Below, one piece after another: positions 28,199 through 38,385 of a DNA stretch of 64,000 nucleotides. The stretch is from NCBI RefSeq assembly GCF_023617305.1, contig NZ_CP081485.1, positions 1-64,000 on the forward strand, written 5' to 3'. This DNA is from Methanobrevibacter sp. TLL-48-HuF1. GTDB taxonomy: Archaea; Methanobacteriota; Methanobacteria; Methanobacteriales; Methanobacteriaceae. The notes below the pieces were generated by a model, which searched no databases, was not told where the DNA came from, and was given only the letters and a program-made list of their open reading frames with translations. Made by a program: the position numbers and the translations under genes. How positions within the stretch are numbered: the first letter of the stretch is position 1; each line of letters opens with the position of its first letter.

Positions 28199-31100
28199 TT
28201 ACTCTTCATTTTTTCGTTTATAATAACCATAACCAAATATTAGCACCATTACAACAACGCAAATAATCAGTGATATAGGCATATCTCCTTTTGTAGATGA
28301 ACTGGAAGATGTATCTTTAGATACTTCGTAAGATTTTCCGGATTCCTGTTCAGAAGCTGAAACTTCACTGCTTGAAGAGGACGGATTTTGGGAACTGTCC
28401 ATACCAATACTTGAAGATATTTGAGAGTTGGATCCGCCATAGCTTATAATACTGGATTGTGTTGTACTTGTAGCTTTTGATGAACTTTGACTTTCGTCAT
28501 TTGAATTTTGATTATTTGAATTTGTTGGAACAAATGAATTGGCAAAAATGTTATTTTGAGTAGCCTGATAAAGTTGGTCATTAAATTTAGCCAGTAAATC
28601 AGGATTAATGTATTGTGTAGCCCATTTTAACATAGCTATATTACCACAGCTACAATCACAGCATGCAACACCGTTTACAATTATGGAATTTGCCCACATT
28701 GTTGCTAAATTTTCCAGTGTTCCTTTATCTGTTTGCCAGTAGCCGTTATATGCAGCAGTTAAAAGGGTTCCTGCAGATGAAATAAATGCATAATTATTGT
28801 TTCCGCTTTGTAACCAGTCAGTTACTCCTAAATTGTATTTGTCTTTGATGTAAACATTATATGATTCATCCCACATCCAGTTGTTTACTGCATTCGGTCT
28901 TGTTACAGCCCATCCAAATAAATTATTCAGGAATTTATTGGATATATAACGTGCTCCGCTGTATCCTTCATTCATCATTCCAAGTATCCAATTTGGATTG
29001 AAGTATCGGGTTGCTGTTTCTTTAGACAATACAGTTTCAATGGAACTGATATACGGTTTGTCTTTATTACCATACATTAACACATTCATATTAGGAGTTT
29101 TTCCATTAATATATGAAACTGCCATTGAAAGACCGCCCCAGTAATCAAAGAAATCATCATTATCTGCAATGCCGTAAACATTTGTATTACGGCTGACAAT
29201 AATGTCATCAGTATTATTGAGAACTCTTGCAAATACTACAGGATTTGTTTCGCCCCAGTAATTTTTAGAGTACATATTTCCCATTCTGCCTAAGTAAAAT
29301 TTAGCTAAATCATTAGTATTATTCCATGTCCAACTTAATGAAACGGATTTGGCAATACCTGCTCCATAATCTCCATTTGGCGGTGCAAATACGCGGGTAA
29401 TAGCTACTTCTCCGGCATATGTATTATTATAGCCCAAATTTTTGTAGTATATAAAATCATTAACCCAATGACGAGCTACATAATTTTCATCAAAAGATTC
29501 AGATCCGACTCCATAATATCCGATGCCTTCCATTACTTTATCCAGTGCTTCTTTCATGTCTTTTCCATATTTACTTTCCATCAATGTTTTATTATTAATG
29601 ATAGTTAAATATGATCTAGCTAAAGCTACTCTAAATGCATTGTCTAATAATGAAACCTGGGTGCTGTATAAATCTCTAAAGTTACCGCTTGTAATGACAA
29701 CAACATCTATTCTTTTTTTAGCCCATCCTTCAGGTCTGAGCAAATCTTTTAATCCGACAAATTTTGGCATTATTTTGGTTTTGGTACCGACACTGTCACC
29801 ATCTTCAGTTTTACCTCCGGCACTTGGAGAAGAAGTATAAACAGGTTGCATACCTAACAGATATAATACTACTGAAATTAAGGCACCGTTATCTCTTGCT
29901 GTTTCAACACACCAAATTCCCATTGCAATTTTTTGTGTTTTTTCATTAAGAGATGACAGTGTAAGCAATGTCAGTATTTTGGCATAGTTATATGCTTCTT
30001 CTGTTGGCAGTTCCTGTGATTGATCATGGAAGAAATTTCCACCAGTCGGCAGTGAATTAATATTAATTACATCTCCATCAGAAACAACAGGGATATATTT
30101 ACCATTTAATCCATTAATAAATGATGTTAATTCATTGTTTATGGAAGCATAAATTAAAGAAATGTAATATCTTCCATAATTCATTGCAGCAATTAAACTA
30201 GGGCTGTCTGAGCCTAAAACATTAGCTACTGTAGTACTGTTTGAGAATATTAATGCAGCTACTATTTGTTCACTTGTGTTTAATACTTTATCTCTTTCTA
30301 GGGCATTTAATTCAGAATACTTTTTAGAAAAGAGGTATTTTGCAACTTCATCAAATATTGTGGTGGTTATTCCATCATATGTAAACTCCTGGGACAGTGC
30401 AGCAACTACGCTACGACTAATGTCAGTTACTGTCCAATTTTGACCAATAGCATGCAAACCTAATGGGTAAAGGGTATTTTGAACTTCAAATAAAAATTTA
30501 TCTGCAGATTTAACTACTTCATTTAAATTTAATTTTTCAAATTCCTCCTGAGTTAATCCCATAGATTGAATATAATTATTTCTTTCAATTAATAACTTAA
30601 TGCTGAAAGCTATTGTATCTTTTTGAGTTTTATCGGTAGTATTTTCATATTTATTTATTAAATTAGCTATTGCAGTTAGGTTGCCGTAGAGACTGGTATA
30701 AGCTAAAGGTGAGGTTAAATGAGTAATCATAACTGCAAATCCTCTTCTTTTTGCTTCTAATCCTTCTCCTAATCCGTCAGAAATATAGAAATATATCTGT
30801 GGAACGTCACCAACTACAATTGATCCGTAATCAGTTGTTGACAGTAAAACTTCTTTTCCAGGTAACCATTCATGTGTTGCATGTCTTCCAATAAAAACCA
30901 TAGCTGAGGAATATTCTTTTTGCATATAATAATATGCAGCCAGATACTGGTGTGTAGGTGCTACTGCAGAACTATGATATAGTAAATCTGATTTAGCTTC
31001 CCATCCTCTTTGAGGTTCTGGAGCTATGAATATGTTACCGAATTTTAAACCTGGAATTACAAAGTATTCTACTCCATTTTTTGTAACTGTCATAATGTTT

Positions 31101-33214
31101 CCAGGAGCTTCTCCCCATCCGTTTAATCCAGGAATATTCAATGCTTTCCATTGGGATTTAAGAGATAAATATTCCTGATAATCACCATCTTTTCCTGTTT
31201 GTAAGTATTTGTTTAAAGCCGCAACGATTTTATTTAAAAGCAGGACTCCACTTTCAGTATAATTTTCAGGTAATAATGATTTAACGCCATTATACCAGTC
31301 ATTAATTATATCTTTCATTGGTGAGGTATAATTAATAGCTATTGCATTTCTAGCTAACTGACCAATATATGCAACAGGACCTTCAATAACTTGGACTTTA
31401 GAAATTGGTTCCAAACTATTAAACCAGTTTTCATATTCTGCAACTGGCAATAATACGATATTTGGCTGATTGGATAATTTTTCCAATTCTCCAGGAGCCC
31501 AGGTTGCTACATTAATACCGCTTTTAATCATCATGTCTTCAAGTTCCTTAACAGTTGTTGGGAGTTTTCCCACATTATATCCCTGTGATTTAAGTTCATA
31601 TAATAGATTATAAACACTTGTAATTGAATCTAAATAACTTGATCCGATATTTTGTTTTCCTGGAGGATAGTTGAAGTAAACTAAAGAAATCTTTTTGTCA
31701 CTGTTAACTGTATATTGTAAATTTATCCAGGAAACAATTCTTTTAGTAAACAAATCAATATTTTTTTCATGAGCTTTAAAACCACTTAACTGAGCTCCGG
31801 TTTTTGAAGAAATTTCATGAGTAACTCCTCCAACAAATGTTGCTTCAATAATGCCCTGTGCTTCACCAATTGCTACATGCCACCATTTATCACTACGATT
31901 CCCAGGAAGCCCTGTAGCACTTAATTCCCATTCTTCATTACTGACATAATCAGAATGAACCGCACGAAATACTGGAACTCCTGCAGTTTCAAAGTACTTG
32001 GTTGTATTATCAAATAAATTTCCTCCAATACCATATGCAGGCATTGAAATTATTGCATTGACATTATTTGTATATTTCAACGGATTATTTAAATAGGCTT
32101 CATAACTTGGAGCATTGGTAAAGTATTTTACCATTACTTTTAACTGGTTTTCAGACCCGCCAGCCGCTACAACAGGAATAACATTGCATCCTTTAGCTTC
32201 TAATGATTTGATTAGTGCATAGTATGGCTGTAATTGACCGTTACTTACATACATATTACTTTCAAGTAAACCCACAGTATATGGTCTTGAGGAATCAAAA
32301 TATTTCTTTTTATATTCTTCAAGTGTCATGTACTGTTCTCTAAATATTCCGTATTCATAGGTTTTACTAAAACGCGGATCGGAATATTTGCATTCATATC
32401 CGGTAATATTTAAAGCCCACAATATTTCATTTATTTGATTTTCTTTGTTATTGTAATTTTTATATAACACTGCTTTGTTAAATTCTTCATTGACTAATTT
32501 TCCATCCCCATTTGTAATATATTCGTAATATACATTGTAATTTTGCCCTCTTTTAGTCATTGAAAAGTAATTGTTTAAAAATTCTTCAGTATATATGCTT
32601 TTATCTGAAAATATTTTTTTATGATTTATTGTTGAATTTCTAACCAAGTGTAAATTTTTTGCTTGAGAGCTACTGGATGTTTCTAAAAATAAAAACAATT
32701 CTTTATTTGATAGATTTGGATATTTTAGTAGTAAATTAGTAAATACTGAATCAGCATCAGAAGTTAACCAGTTAATAATAACAATATCGCTAGTTTCCAC
32801 AAGAGTGTATAACTCATTTTCATTCATTTTGCAAATTTGATTACAGCTTCTAACCTGTATATTTACATCTTTGTATGTGTTTAGGATATCGCAGGCAGCA
32901 TCATTTAATATGTTTGTCCCAGGATTATCGCTTATTAGTAATGCCTTTTTAGGAAGGTTATTTTCTTTAATTACATTACTATAAGATATTTTATACGGTG
33001 GGAAGCTGCATTCATGAGAATCATTTTCACAGATACTGTTTTCTTCCAAGTTGATTTCTATGCTATCAGCAGTTGTTTCAGTTATATTTTGAATTTCAGA
33101 GTTTGTTGTGTTTTCCTGTGCAGAAATTGTCGTTGGACTTAATGATATAATTATTGCTAATATTATTATAAATGGTATTATAGGTGAAAAATTTTTTTTA
33201 TTACCTAAATTCAT
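28199..33214 (-). CDS. Secreted, membrane-anchored CobN-like (cobaltochelatase large subunit) protein
   Basis: CobN/magnesium-chelatase H-type protein of 1671 residues that appears to act outside the cell. Seen: a signal peptide (KKNFSPIIPFIIILAIIISL, cleavage near 32), the CobN core with WGEAPGNIM, RGWEAKSDLLYH, GRHATHEWLPGK (about 775-790), DGLGEGLEAKRRGFAVMI, FAPPNGDYGAG, NPNWILGMMNEGYSGAR and NNLFGWAVTR, a CCDCSCGN motif near 1520, a Ser/Gln-rich linker (about 1560-1640), then one membrane helix and KRKNEE at the end. Family knowledge: cytoplasmic CobN inserts cobalt into hydrogenobyrinate with CobST; methanogens carry extra CobN-like paralogues. A perfect AGGAGGTAAT precedes the ATG. An IS lies 68 nt upstream. 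A role in extracellular metal or tetrapyrrole capture is inference; chelation itself is unproven. Confidence 0.85.
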   Translation of the reverse strand: MNLGNKKNFSPIIPFIIILAIIISLSPTTISAQENTTNSEIQNITETTADSIEINLEENSICENDSHECSFPPYKISYSNVIKENNLPKKALLISDNPGTNILNDAACDILNTYKDVNIQVRSCNQICKMNENELYTLVETSDIVIINWLTSDADSVFTNLLLKYPNLSNKELFLFLETSSSSQAKNLHLVRNSTINHKKIFSDKSIYTEEFLNNYFSMTKRGQNYNVYYEYITNGDGKLVNEEFNKAVLYKNYNNKENQINEILWALNITGYECKYSDPRFSKTYEYGIFREQYMTLEEYKKKYFDSSRPYTVGLLESNMYVSNGQLQPYYALIKSLEAKGCNVIPVVAAGGSENQLKVMVKYFTNAPSYEAYLNNPLKYTNNVNAIISMPAYGIGGNLFDNTTKYFETAGVPVFRAVHSDYVSNEEWELSATGLPGNRSDKWWHVAIGEAQGIIEATFVGGVTHEISSKTGAQLSGFKAHEKNIDLFTKRIVSWINLQYTVNSDKKISLVYFNYPPGKQNIGSSYLDSITSVYNLLYELKSQGYNVGKLPTTVKELEDMMIKSGINVATWAPGELEKLSNQPNIVLLPVAEYENWFNSLEPISKVQVIEGPVAYIGQLARNAIAINYTSPMKDIINDWYNGVKSLLPENYTESGVLLLNKIVAALNKYLQTGKDGDYQEYLSLKSQWKALNIPGLNGWGEAPGNIMTVTKNGVEYFVIPGLKFGNIFIAPEPQRGWEAKSDLLYHSSAVAPTHQYLAAYYYMQKEYSSAMVFIGRHATHEWLPGKEVLLSTTDYGSIVVGDVPQIYFYISDGLGEGLEAKRRGFAVMITHLTSPLAYTSLYGNLTAIANLINKYENTTDKTQKDTIAFSIKLLIERNNYIQSMGLTQEEFEKLNLNEVVKSADKFLFEVQNTLYPLGLHAIGQNWTVTDISRSVVAALSQEFTYDGITTTIFDEVAKYLFSKKYSELNALERDKVLNTSEQIVAALIFSNSTTVANVLGSDSPSLIAAMNYGRYYISLIYASINNELTSFINGLNGKYIPVVSDGDVININSLPTGGNFFHDQSQELPTEEAYNYAKILTLLTLSSLNEKTQKIAMGIWCVETARDNGALISVVLYLLGMQPVYTSSPSAGGKTEDGDSVGTKTKIMPKFVGLKDLLRPEGWAKKRIDVVVITSGNFRDLYSTQVSLLDNAFRVALARSYLTIINNKTLMESKYGKDMKEALDKVMEGIGYYGVGSESFDENYVARHWVNDFIYYKNLGYNNTYAGEVAITRVFAPPNGDYGAGIAKSVSLSWTWNNTNDLAKFYLGRMGNMYSKNYWGETNPVVFARVLNNTDDIIVSRNTNVYGIADNDDFFDYWGGLSMAVSYINGKTPNMNVLMYGNKDKPYISSIETVLSKETATRYFNPNWILGMMNEGYSGARYISNKFLNNLFGWAVTRPNAVNNWMWDESYNVYIKDKYNLGVTDWLQSGNNNYAFISSAGTLLTAAYNGYWQTDKGTLENLATMWANSIIVNGVACCDCSCGNIAMLKWATQYINPDLLAKFNDQLYQATQNNIFANSFVPTNSNNQNSNDESQSSSKATSTTQSSIISYGGSNSQISSSIGMDSSQNPSSSSSEVSASEQESGKSYEVSKDTSSSSSTKGDMPISLIICVVVMVLIFGYGYYKRKNEE

Positions 33215-33282: not shown

Positions 33283-35070
33283 GGGTGTCCGCCAAAATTG
33301 ATTTTTGATTTTTCGTCAAAAAAATTTTTGGGCTTAATTTTTATTATTTTTAATATATTTCAATTAATTTTTGTTTATTTTATTTTATTTGGTTTAATTA
33401 TTTTTTAAATTATTGTTTAGTTTTATTTTATTCTTATTTTTGATTTTTAATGGTTTTAAGACAGTTAAGTTTATATACTTTGTTGTACATATTTTATATT
33501 AGATATAAGTTGTTTTGGTGTTGTTATTTATGGTTAAAAGAAAGTTTGATAGGAATCAGGCAAAATTGGGCATTAATACTCTTGATTGGAATGTTCCGGA
33601 GAATCATATTTCTCGTTTTGTTGTTGAATTTGTTGAAGAAGTTTTTCCACTTTTAAATATCAAAGAACCCAAGAAAAAGAAAGGAAGAGACTCCCTTCCA
33701 GTGGATTCCATGTTAAAATTGCTTATTTATGCCAAAATCCAACATATTGATAGAACATCAATAATTGCAGATATGGCGCGATACCATGATATATTTAAAT
33801 ACGTGTGCGATGATATTAGACCTTCTGAAAGATCAATCCAAAGATATCGAAGAGAATATGGCCATTATTTTGAAGTATTGCTGCAAATGACATTAAAAAA
33901 GGCCTTTGATGAAGGATTCACTGAATTTAATCACGTTGCCATTGATGGAACCATCAAAAAAGCATACAATTCCAACAACAACACCATTACAAAAAAAGAA
34001 ACTCAAATATTGATCGATTACTACGAAGGACGACCTATTGACCCTGAATGTCTTGAAAAACTTCACAAACCTGCTCAAAGATTATTGGAAAAGAAAGACA
34101 TAGATGATGAAGATAAATTAGAACTATTATATGGAATAAAAACACAATTTACATTCACAGGACAGGATAAAATTCCAGTAAATGATATAGAAGCAAGATT
34201 TATGAAAGGAAAGAAAGGAAACTTCATGGTTGCTTATAATATCCAATCTGCAGTCGATTATGATACCAAATTAATCTGTGCAATAAACGTCACACAAAAC
34301 CCGACAGACCACTACGAACTACCAATAATCGCAGAAAGAGCAATAAGAAACATTAACACCACACCAAAGTATATAAGTGCCGATACAATATACTTAAACC
34401 AAATATCACTATCATACTTAGCAGATAAAAAAATAGATGGTTTAATACCAAATAGAAAGCAAAGTAAAGAAAAAATAGGAAAATTAAATCCAAATCCATA
34501 CCATAAAGACCATTTTGAATATGATTATGAATTAGATGCATTCAAATGCCCAAAAAATCAATATATGCACTTTTTCGCAAAATACATCGAACCACACAAA
34601 GATCCAGAAAAACCAGACAAAATAAAAAGACTCTACAACAATTATGAAGCCTGTAAAAACTGCAAAGCACGAAACAAATGCTTAACAGGCAAACAAACAC
34701 ACAAAACCATCACAGAATACGGATCAGAAATGCAAAAAGCAATGAACGAAAAAATGGAAAAACAGGAATATAAAGACGAATATAGCAAAAGATCAAGCGT
34801 TGAAGGACCATTTGGAATATTCAAAGAACAATTCCAAATAGAAAAAGAAGTAGTCATCGGAATGGTAAAAACAGAAGAAAGAATAAACTTAGATGCATTA
34901 GCATATAATTTAATACGACTACACAACATAAAACAAGAAATAAAAAACACAACAGAAGATTTAGAAGATTTCTGCGAAAGCACATCCATTAAAAACCAAT
35001 TAAAACTTGATGTAACAATATTTTAAAAAAAATCAACAAGTCAGCCAAAATTCAATTTTGGCGGACACCC
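33283..35070 (+). mobile_element. Complete IS1182-type insertion sequence
   Basis: 1788-bp element bounded by perfect 19-bp terminal inverted repeats GGGTGTCCGCCAAAATTGA (left at 33283-33301, right as the complement at 35052-35070). It is flanked on both sides by TAAT (33279-33282 and 35071-35074), a likely 4-bp target duplication. It contains one intact transposase gene. The 5' non-coding part (33302-33529) is extremely AT-rich and holds no other gene. Length and transposase type fit the IS1182 family. Intact ends and an intact gene suggest recent activity. Confidence 0.93.
33530..35026 (+). CDS. IS1182-type DDE transposase
   Basis: Transposase of 498 residues that cuts and joins the IS ends. 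Catalytic triad seen: D139 (HVAIDGTIKKA), D285 (YISADTIYLN) and E424 (SSVEGPFGIFK). A Cys group CKNCKARNKC (374-383) precedes the last block, as in this family. An N-terminal helical region (about 50-110) resembles the DUF772 DNA-binding part. The frame is open to a TTG at 33515, but the ATG at 33530 with GGTG ahead is preferred. The later half is A-rich, unlike the balanced T/A use of neighbouring genes, which fits foreign origin. Full length, no internal stop. Confidence 0.93.
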   Translation: MVKRKFDRNQAKLGINTLDWNVPENHISRFVVEFVEEVFPLLNIKEPKKKKGRDSLPVDSMLKLLIYAKIQHIDRTSIIADMARYHDIFKYVCDDIRPSERSIQRYRREYGHYFEVLLQMTLKKAFDEGFTEFNHVAIDGTIKKAYNSNNNTITKKETQILIDYYEGRPIDPECLEKLHKPAQRLLEKKDIDDEDKLELLYGIKTQFTFTGQDKIPVNDIEARFMKGKKGNFMVAYNIQSAVDYDTKLICAINVTQNPTDHYELPIIAERAIRNINTTPKYISADTIYLNQISLSYLADKKIDGLIPNRKQSKEKIGKLNPNPYHKDHFEYDYELDAFKCPKNQYMHFFAKYIEPHKDPEKPDKIKRLYNNYEACKNCKARNKCLTGKQTHKTITEYGSEMQKAMNEKMEKQEYKDEYSKRSSVEGPFGIFKEQFQIEKEVVIGMVKTEERINLDALAYNLIRLHNIKQEIKNTTEDLEDFCESTSIKNQLKLDVTIF

Positions 35071-35074
35071 TAAT

Positions 35075-35352
35075 AAAAAATAAAAATTTTAAAAGTTCTG
35101 TTTCAATATTTTATTTTTATTGATTTAAAATTTAATAAATTTAACTATATTAGTATTACTTATCTGATAAAAAAATAGATTTAAGTAATACTTTTATTTT
35201 AGCTAAATTTTAAGTATTACTTTTTTTGAAATTATTAATTTATAAGTAATACTTTAAATACCTATTTATATTACATTTTTTATAATAAAGTTCATTAAAC
35301 AATTTTTTCATTGTTTAATAAATTGAATCCTTATAAACGAGGTTATAGGAAG
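35075..35352. promoter_or_regulatory. Former divergent promoter region between the CobN-like gene and adhesin 2
   Basis: About 280 nt without a gene. It holds the four-palindrome array (separate entry), AT-rich TATA candidates (TTTATATTAC near 35264-35275 and TTTTTATAATAAAG near 35277-35290), and AGGA a few nt before the adhesin ATG at 35353. Before IS insertion this segment plus 33215-33282 would have formed a single divergent intergenic region of about 350 bp. Confidence 0.5.
35151..35254. promoter_or_regulatory. Operator-like array: four 11-bp palindromes AAGTA-W-TACTT
   Basis: Four copies of an odd-centred palindrome: TAGTATTACTT (35151-35161, one mismatch), AAGTAATACTT (35183-35193), AAGTATTACTT (35212-35222) and AAGTAATACTT (35244-35254). 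Centres lie 32, 29 and 32 bp apart, about three DNA turns, and the central base alternates T/A/T/A. They sit upstream of the TATA candidates of adhesin 2. Regular phasing and dyad symmetry indicate binding sites for a dimeric regulator, which is not identified. Confidence 0.6.
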
Positions 35353-35370
35353 ATGAATGTTAAAAACAAA

Positions 35371-35381
35371 TTTTTTTTTTT
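35371..35381 (+). repeat. Poly-T tract (11 T) within the adhesin 2 signal-peptide region
   Basis: Eleven consecutive T residues starting 18 nt after the first base of the ATG. Tracts of 9 or 12 T would put the start codon in frame with the long adhesin reading frame; 10 or 11 would not. This is the classic layout of a slipped-strand on/off switch. Confidence 0.75.
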
Positions 35382-37379
35382 ATATTGGTTGCATTGATTG
35401 TTGGTTTGTTAACAATTAATGGTGCATTTGCAGAAACAGCTGATTCAATGCCTGAAATTGATCAGGGTACTGTTTCAGGTGATGCAGAATTAATAAGCAC
35501 AAACCCTTGGAGTACCACAGGAAGTCTTGAATATGCAATTCCTGATGGTGTGCAGGAAATTACTTCTGCTAAGGTAATTGTAAATATCTATTCAGGTAGT
35601 GGAAATTCGGAAACCTATGCTTTACACTCAAATACTACATTAAACACAGCAGGAAATAGTAAGGTATTGGGATATGAAAATTTAACTTATGTTGGTAATC
35701 AGGCTGGTGATTCAAATGTGTATGTGATTAATAATCATACTACAAAACAGTATTCTGATTATCAAATGGTTTATGATGTTTTAGGTGATTTAAAAGATTT
35801 AGGTCCTAATTCAAAAATTAAAATAGATGTAACTAGCACTCCATTTGAAGGTAAAGCTTTTGATGGACGAATAAAAATGATTGGATTATTTATTGCATAT
35901 AATGACGGGGACAGCGACAGTATCACATATTGGTTAAATGTAGGAATGTCATGGACTCAGGGCACTGTAAGCAATTTAATTTATACAAAAAATTACACTG
36001 GTGACATAGGTGAAGTTAACTTTGAAGCAATAATGTTGTCTAGCAATAACGGAGCATATAAGTTTAATGATAATCAACTGTTTATTCCAGAAGACACTAT
36101 AGTAAAAGATTATTATATATATAATAAATGGGATGTTACAGATTATTTCCAAATAGGAGATAATAATAATTTTACATATTCTGCACTATCTCAGGGATAT
36201 GGTTCTATTAAATCAAGTGTTCAATTACTTAAAGTAATTAACAGAGAATCTCCTGTAGTTACTACTAATATTGCTTCAGAATATAAAAATTCTATTTATG
36301 CTGGTGTTACTAATAATTTAACTATTACAGTTAACAGCATTAACAAGGATTTAACTAATGTAACTGTTTATGTTTATGATAATGGCCGTGTTGTTGGTTC
36401 TTATTTGGTTGATTTTGTAAAAGCTAATTCTTCCAAATCAGTAAATATAATAGATTCTTTTATTAGACCAATTGATGAAAATACTGTTTTAGGAAACAAT
36501 AATACCAATGTTGTTTACAGAGTTATTGTTGAAGATAAAAACGGTATTTTAAATGACACCAACAGCAGTAATTTTATGGTGGTTTATAACGGTAATTTAG
36601 GAAAAGATTTGGCATATCCTGCCATGAATGCTACAATTACACGTGTTTATGATATTAGTGGTGATGTAATTATTTTAAATAAAGATGATTCATCATATTT
36701 AGGGTCCAAGAGTACAAATGGAAGCGACACATGGAATATTGATTTTAAAGGGGAGTTAAAAGAAGGATTGTTATATGTTTCATATAACTGGAATAAGCAA
36801 GCTGATGTAAGTGATTGGATAGTTACTTTCAATAATAAAATCATTACACCAATTGTCCATTACCGTGACCAGTCTAATTTAGGAGCATACGGCAAACATG
36901 GCTACGGACTTGCAGTTTATAATGTTACAGATTTAATCAATAAAGGATTAAATACTTTTACTTTAAATAAAACAAGTGGTTTAACTGCTGTTTATCCAAG
37001 TTCTTTATTACTTTTAACTAATAATGAAAATGGCGCTAGTAAAACTGTTTATATAAGTGAAGGTGCGGATTTACTTTCTAAAACAAATAATAAAAATTTG
37101 GATGTCGGAGCTTATACTAAATTTAACATTGACTCCACTTCAATGATTAATTCCACATTATATGTTTTTGCAGCAGGCGGACAAAAAAATGAAGGAAACA
37201 TTGTTTTTAATGGTGAAATAAAAAGTGATGTATGGAATAAGACTTCAAATTCAATTGATTATTATACTTTCAACACCGATGGTTTAACTAAAGACAATAA
37301 CACTGTATTTTTCCAGTCTACAGGTTCAACTATTCTTGCATTACATCAGATACTTGTTGTAGAACGTGAAAACATACAG

Positions 37380-38375
37380 TTAACAGTTGAAGATCTTGAA
37401 AAATATTATGGTGGATCAGAAAGACTTAATGCTACTTTAAAAGATGGTGCTGGAAATCCGATAGCTAATAAAACTATTACATTTACTGTTAATGGTAAAA
37501 AATACAATAAAACAACTGATTCCAATGGATTTGCATCATTGGTAATTGGCTTAATGCCTGGAACATATGATGTAACAACAATGTACGGCAATATGTCTGT
37601 TTATTCAAAAGTTGTTGTTAAAACTACTATTGAAGGTAAAGACCTTGTTAAAATGTATAAAAATGAAACTCAATTCTTTGCAACTTTCTTAGGCACTGAT
37701 GGCAAACCGTTATCTAACACTGATGTAACATTTAACATTAATGGTGTATTTTACACACGTCAAACAAATGAAAATGGTGTAGCTAGGTTAAATATTAATT
37801 TAAGACCTGATGTGTATATTTTAACTGCTATTAATTCAGTTACTGGTGAAAGTAAAGGATTTAATATAACTGTTAAACCTTTAATTGAGTCAAATGATTT
37901 AACCAAGTACTACAGAAATGATTCTAATTTTGAAGTAAAAATTTACAATAAAGATGGAACCCTTGCAATAAACAAAGAGGTTACATTTAATATTAATGGT
38001 GTATTCTATCAAAAAACCACAGACAGCAACGGTATAGCTAGGTTAGGTATTGCTTTAAGACCTGGAAATTATATAATTACCACTATCGTTGACGGTTTGG
38101 ATATAGGTAATAATATAAATGTATTGCCGACTTTAGTAACAAGTGATCTTTCCATGAAATATCTTGACGGCAGCAACTTTACTGTGCAGACATTAGACGG
38201 TCAGGGCAATCCGTTAGCTAAGCAAAATATATTATTTAACATAAATGGTAGATTCTATTACAGAGTAACTGATGATGAGGGTATGGCATCATTGAATATA
38301 AGATTAATGCCTGGAGAGTATATCATTACTTCGTATTGGAATGATTTCGAAGTTGGAAACACAGTAAAAGTAGAT
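37380..38375 (+). repeat. Four-repeat C-terminal cassette, copy in adhesin 2
   Basis: Four repeats of about 83 residues, starting LTVEDLEKYY, IEGKDLVKMY, IESNDLTKYY and LVTSDLSMKY. They contain VTFNINGVFY-type cores and end GNTVKVD. Position by position they match the cassettes of adhesins 1 and 3. Confidence 0.9.
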
Positions 38376-38385
38376 TAAAATTTAA

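Follow-up and report, generated by a model that had tools for sequence, protein, structure and literature searches.

The window analysed here, a stretch of 64,000 nucleotides, begins at base 1 of the complete genome of Methanobrevibacter sp. TLL-48-HuF1 (G000; 1,951,395 bp, 30% GC). It includes an insertion sequence followed by a large gene for an adhesin-like protein, whose reading frame is broken by a run of eleven T residues (T11) located within the codons of its signal peptide. We compared this region with G033, the nearest relative, which belongs to a different species and has a complete genome of 1,853,160 bp (93.5% identity over 420 kb aligned). The features are as follows:

33283-35070, plus strand: IS1182-like insertion sequence of 1,788 bp, with TIR GGGTGTCCGCCAAAATTGA and an apparent 4-bp target duplication, TAAT; G033 is without the element
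33515-35026, plus strand: transposase ORF of the IS1182-like element (NCBIfam IS1182, 249.5 bits, slightly under the 270-bit cut-off)
35052-35070: right TIR of the IS1182-like element
35071-35352, plus strand: upstream region, promoter and leader of the adhesin-like gene, ca. 98% identical to G033
35339-35343, plus strand: SD-like GAGGT, 9 nt 5' of ATG1 and 13 nt 5' of ATG2
35353-35355, plus strand: ATG1 start codon, in the adhesin-like frame if the tract is T9 or T12
35357-35359, plus strand: ATG2, second start overlapping ATG1, in the adhesin-like frame if the tract is T10 or T13
35371-35381, plus strand: T11 homopolymer within the signal peptide, breaking the frame from both ATGs; T9 in G033
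35382-38378, plus strand: remainder of the adhesin-like gene, with the rest of the signal peptide (ILVALIVGLLTINGAFA), DUF3344 and C-terminal Ig-like repeats (Big_1/Big_3_5/MG4-type)

The IS1182-like element, of which G000 contains about nine full copies, separates the adhesin-like gene, whose ATG lies 282 bp further on, from a CobN-like gene. The CobN/Mg-chelatase-like protein (28199-33214, minus strand, 1,671 aa) has an apparent signal peptide, and its gene is divergent from the adhesin-like gene.

The start region of the adhesin-like gene reads ATGaATG and contains two out-of-phase starts. The original prediction placed a start codon with a ribosome binding site at 35353 and the loss of the frame at T11, and both are confirmed in the sequence: GAGGT precedes ATG1, which opens MNVKNKFFF ahead of the tract, and translation ends after 14 codons at a TGA stop (35395-35397), yielding a 14-aa peptide. 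Indeed, short peptides of 14–20 aa are all that either start would give with the T11 allele. Beyond the tract, the frame is open from 35382/35385 to 38378, with 998 codons and zero internal stops (997 aa when counted from the TTG at 35385), in agreement with the nearly 1000-codon frame, free of other lesions, that had been described. A start at this TTG, 3' of the tract, is unlikely: there is no SD ahead of it and the charged N-region of the signal peptide would be missing. We found nothing unusual in the RNA structure near the start codon (z −0.06).

The length of the tract decides the frame of the gene, a property expected of a phase-variable (contingency) locus mediated by simple sequence repeats (SSRs). 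It had been proposed that tracts of 9 or 12 T would restore the fusion and that those of 10 or 11 would not. This is correct for 9, 12 and 11, but not for 10, because ATG2 is then in frame. T9 and T12 are served by ATG1 and T10 and T13 by ATG2, which leaves T8, T11 and T14 as the only fully off lengths; since T10 still yields a product, the logic of the switch differs from that first put forward.

Pfam matches in the large frame include DUF3344, Big_1 and related Ig-like domains, identifying an extracellular-repeat protein, and the C-terminal repeat region is common to many paralogs. The T9 form carries, as judged by eye, a Sec signal peptide (MNVKNKFFFILVALIVGLLTINGAFA). By a crude filter, G000 contains ca. 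70 adhesin-like (ALP-like) ORFs. The protein resembles the ALPs of Methanobrevibacter and Methanosphaera in its signal peptide, its large size, its repeat-rich and Asn/Thr-rich sequence and in having many paralogs per genome; it differs from them in that its gene is broken at the signal peptide, and its Pfam matches include neither a C-terminal TM nor a known wall-binding domain. We use the term adhesin as a putative designation, because DUF3344 has no function assigned to it and the searches did not reveal a wall anchor.

The G033 ortholog contains a T9 tract, two T fewer than G000, and is in frame from ATG1. No other indel separates both genomes over the 3 kb of the gene, the proteins are 98% identical and the DNA identity of the gene (ca. 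98%) is higher than the genome average; with 35 synonymous versus 16 non-synonymous changes, dN/dS is 0.12, which indicates purifying selection on the protein. Judging from these sequences, the intact T9 ortholog is the decisive confirmation of the frame break. Because T9 is in frame and the single indel is accompanied by such high DNA identity and low dN/dS, the protein has been in use through most of the divergence of G000 and G033, the break being recent or reversible. The same data uphold the earlier argument that the intact remainder speaks against ordinary decay, in the sense of old decay. ON (T9, G033) and OFF (T11, G000) lengths both occur among relatives, as two alleles, one per species.

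A pattern search of 67 genomes of the genus retrieved the tract in two, G000 and G033 alone, and a scan of genome contigs for other strains returned two distant homologs only (45–47% identity). Homologs in other genomes are 34–54% identical and, where their 5' ends were resolved, have a signal peptide without a tract of at least nine T. Among sites with at least 11 T, sampled one per genome in 30 genomes, we found no second arrangement of SD-ATG, T tract and large ORF; a recurrent T-tract design across the genus was rejected on these two counts.

Long runs are strongly avoided in coding sequence. In the 1.95 Mb of G000 there are two A/T runs of at least 11, where a first-order Markov model expects ca. 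38 of exactly 11; the present T11 is the longest T run of the genome and is matched only by one A11. We shuffled codons within amino acids in the 1,371 CDS that encode 150 aa or more (1.65 Mb in all) and obtained, for coding runs of at least nine T, 29.6 expected versus one observed, a ca. 30-fold depletion, and, for those of at least ten, 7.2 expected versus none; the broken gene enters this count only from its TTG, so that its own T11 is left uncounted. Given this depletion, the T9/T11 tract at this gene is exceptional. Coding runs of at least eight T are concentrated at gene 5' ends, with 6/17 within the first 75 nt, which is partly due to Phe-rich signal peptides; a similar 5'-end trend for tracts was reported in another survey (PMC2831843). 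In a screen for tracts that, on changing length, would connect an SD-ATG leader with an ORF of 150 codons or more in another frame, the present site was the sole match in 108 tract-by-strand tests of A/T runs of at least nine. Taken alone, this is weak support, with ca. 0.1–0.2 chance matches expected from background rates of 0.1–0.2%.

We evaluated the mutability of tracts by comparing G000 with 500 kb of G033, of which ca. 420 kb were aligned. Length changes that were not a multiple of three affected 8 of the 908 coding A/T blocks of at least six, mostly at the edges of ORFs or within small ones. All ten non-coding A/T blocks of at least nine had changed length between both genomes, and these ten include the present T tract, which lies just beyond the called ORF. 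Runs of at least nine are unstable anywhere in this lineage; this backs slippage, yet a changed length does not by itself demonstrate that a switch is selected. MutL was undetectable in G000 and G033 with a model that was positive in 11 of 14 control genomes; both genomes show only a weak MutS-domain match and contain NucS/EndoMS. The absence of MutL and the presence of NucS bear on indel stability throughout the lineage. NucS-type repair has been reported to be incapable of fixing short indels (PMC8228993), and missing indel repair would turn such tracts into effective switches.

A second adhesin-like gene of G000 (ca. 1658702-1662851, plus strand, start MNKFKIGIISLFFLLISMSFVNA), which lies outside the window, at locus L112 or a neighbour, has a G9 tract as its sole lesion (genome positions 1659262-1659270). 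There are ca. 187 codons before the tract and 1,192 open codons after it, and G8 or G11 would restore the frame; we found no close ortholog of this gene in G033, where the best match shows 33% identity. Additionally, a poly-C tract situated 156–200 nt 5' of a 3,951-aa adhesin-like gene is C8 in G000 (284105-284112) versus C12 in G033 (175674-175685), the latter being the only G/C tract of at least nine in G033.

Runs of at least nine G/C are present in 32 of 60 genomes of the genus. Sampling one locus per genome from 30 genomes, mostly draft assemblies and with tract lengths as assembled, we found out-of-frame G9–G12 tracts inside genes for a C5-MTase, a D12 MTase, an N4/N6 MTase, a ParB-domain protein, an HsdS and an alpha/beta hydrolase; one adhesin-like gene with a G tract from the same sample was in frame (intragenic tracts at L139, L140, L142, L143, L148, L157 and L160). 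Two more genomes contain G10 tracts between divergent signal-peptide genes (L136 and L144). The tract-bearing methyltransferase and HsdS genes among L139-L160 are candidate phase-variable archaeal restriction-modification genes, and the tract-bearing gene classes are largely those that phase-vary in bacteria.

The best explanation for the T tract, which we consider probable rather than firmly supported, is that it is a hypermutable, contingency-type tract that toggles the gene of a secreted adhesin-like protein by slippage. Replication slippage would alter the number of T residues within the signal-peptide codons. T9 and T12 would then give the protein from ATG1, T10 and T13 would give it from ATG2 (the rate probably not being the same), and T8, T11 and T14 would give a short peptide alone, so that the sequenced clone of G000 would be in an OFF length and that of G033 in an ON length. 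We infer that slippage is fast within a clone, that it is reversible and that it has an effect at the cell surface, where the benefit might be a varied exposure to the host, to partner microbes or to viruses. Switching by slipped-strand mispairing was the central claim of the original prediction. It is strengthened by the decisive place of the tract, the in-frame T9 ortholog, the dN/dS value, the unstable tracts, the absence of MutL and the existence of other tract-broken adhesin-like and restriction-modification genes, but it is weakened by the limitation of the tract to 2/67 genomes of the genus, by the two alleles coming from different species, by the drift of any run of at least nine in this lineage, by the general concentration of T runs at gene 5' ends and by T10 being also productive.

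It is rather unlikely, but deserves consideration, that the tract results from a recent, essentially accidental T9 to T11 slip in this strain or lineage, the gene being an early pseudogene without selected switching. Unselected tracts of at least nine drift between G000 and G033 too, the IS1182-like insertion upstream is another recent change found in G000 only, and a low dN/dS is equally expected after a recent loss. However, a chance T9 should have been purged as were other coding runs of at least nine T, and slippage easily reverses the same length change; moreover, the other surface and restriction-modification genes that are broken by a tract and otherwise intact suggest a general pattern.

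We consider it improbable that transcriptional (or ribosomal) slippage at U11 rescues the frame in some mRNAs, with the T11 allele making some protein. Most slips would in fact rescue the frame, those of −2 or +1 via ATG1 and those of −1 or +2 via ATG2, and A/T runs of ca. 9–11 are known to slip, with frameshifting of 63% for 11-A and 40% for 9-A in Mg-chelatase gene cassettes (PMC3711429). Nevertheless, this leaves the retention of T9 in G033 unexplained, and it is compatible with switching at the DNA level rather than exclusive of it. An assembly or base-calling error, with a real tract of T9, T10 or T12 and an intact gene, also has little probability: homopolymers are the commonest site of long-read errors, but coding A/T runs are nearly all frame-consistent with G033 (8/908 differ over 420 kb), so the assembly is not homopolymer-ragged, and the tract is longer than that of its ortholog, whereas long-read errors usually make homopolymer runs shorter. 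A Ca. M. intestini strain was sequenced with a hybrid Illumina 640x/Nanopore 208x assembly (PMC9431525), which is possibly, not certainly, that of G000.

The slippage switch that we favour would have much in common with the homopolymer/SSR contingency loci of bacteria, such as those of Neisseria, Campylobacter, Helicobacter and Mycoplasma surface genes: a slippery 5' repeat whose length sets the frame, an intact remainder of the gene and lengths that differ among relatives. It differs from them in the archaeal host, in the poly-T within signal-peptide codons and in being a candidate switch from two genomes, known from sequence. For genes of surface proteins and of restriction-modification systems, phase variation by simple repeats is a textbook strategy of bacteria. 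In the lic-type LPS genes of Haemophilus influenzae, several start codons are found 5' of a tetranucleotide repeat; the present gene is similar in its two out-of-phase ATGs before the repeat, with more than one expressible length class, and dissimilar in having a mononucleotide T repeat and in encoding an archaeal protein.

A survey that included 18 archaeal genomes proposed that homopolymeric tracts near 5' ends serve generally to silence genes, e.g. Listeria inlA; tracts of more than seven bases were not generally in excess there, and Methanobrevibacter is unnamed in its text (PMC2831843). The present locus resembles the inlA type in that a surface-protein gene has an A/T tract close to its 5' end and is silenced by a frameshift. 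A 2025 review of phase variation still places archaeal distributions under future work (PMC11868660), and a survey of archaeal restriction-modification systems mentions phase variation only via bacteria-focused studies (PMC10609329). In the literature searched, with subscription papers outside its reach, we came across no study of phase variation in either Methanobrevibacter or archaea at large, consistent with the view that such switching has rarely been discussed for archaeal surface proteins. The locus is a new archaeal candidate for a kind of switch known from bacteria, credible but unproven. If it switches, it would provide a direct and cheap test of human-gut archaea varying their surface and methylation through replication slippage, and could address why strains differ in their repertoires of adhesin-like proteins.

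More tentatively, and as a possibility that we would not yet put at even chances, human-gut and other Methanobrevibacter might have a genuine phasome, with homopolymer switching of adhesin-like proteins and of DNA methyltransferases/HsdS enabled by missing MutL-dependent indel repair. Its adhesin members would be the T tract with three length classes and two starts, the G9 tract in the second gene and the intergenic poly-C/G tracts beside others. If true, simple-repeat phase variation would be a standing strategy in Archaea.

Four genomes of the genus (G029, G079, G061 and G026) contain far more runs of at least nine G/C or at least 11 T than other members (up to 38 and 139 overlapping matches), and these might represent large phasomes or assembly problems. 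G000 itself has intergenic poly-C tracts, C11 (359275-359285), C10 (830177-830186) and C9 (786565-786573), which are improbable at 30% GC; ca. 0.05 runs of at least ten C are expected in this genome by a Markov model. The C11 tract lies 194 nt 5' of a gene for a MarR-like regulator, a family assigned by eye.
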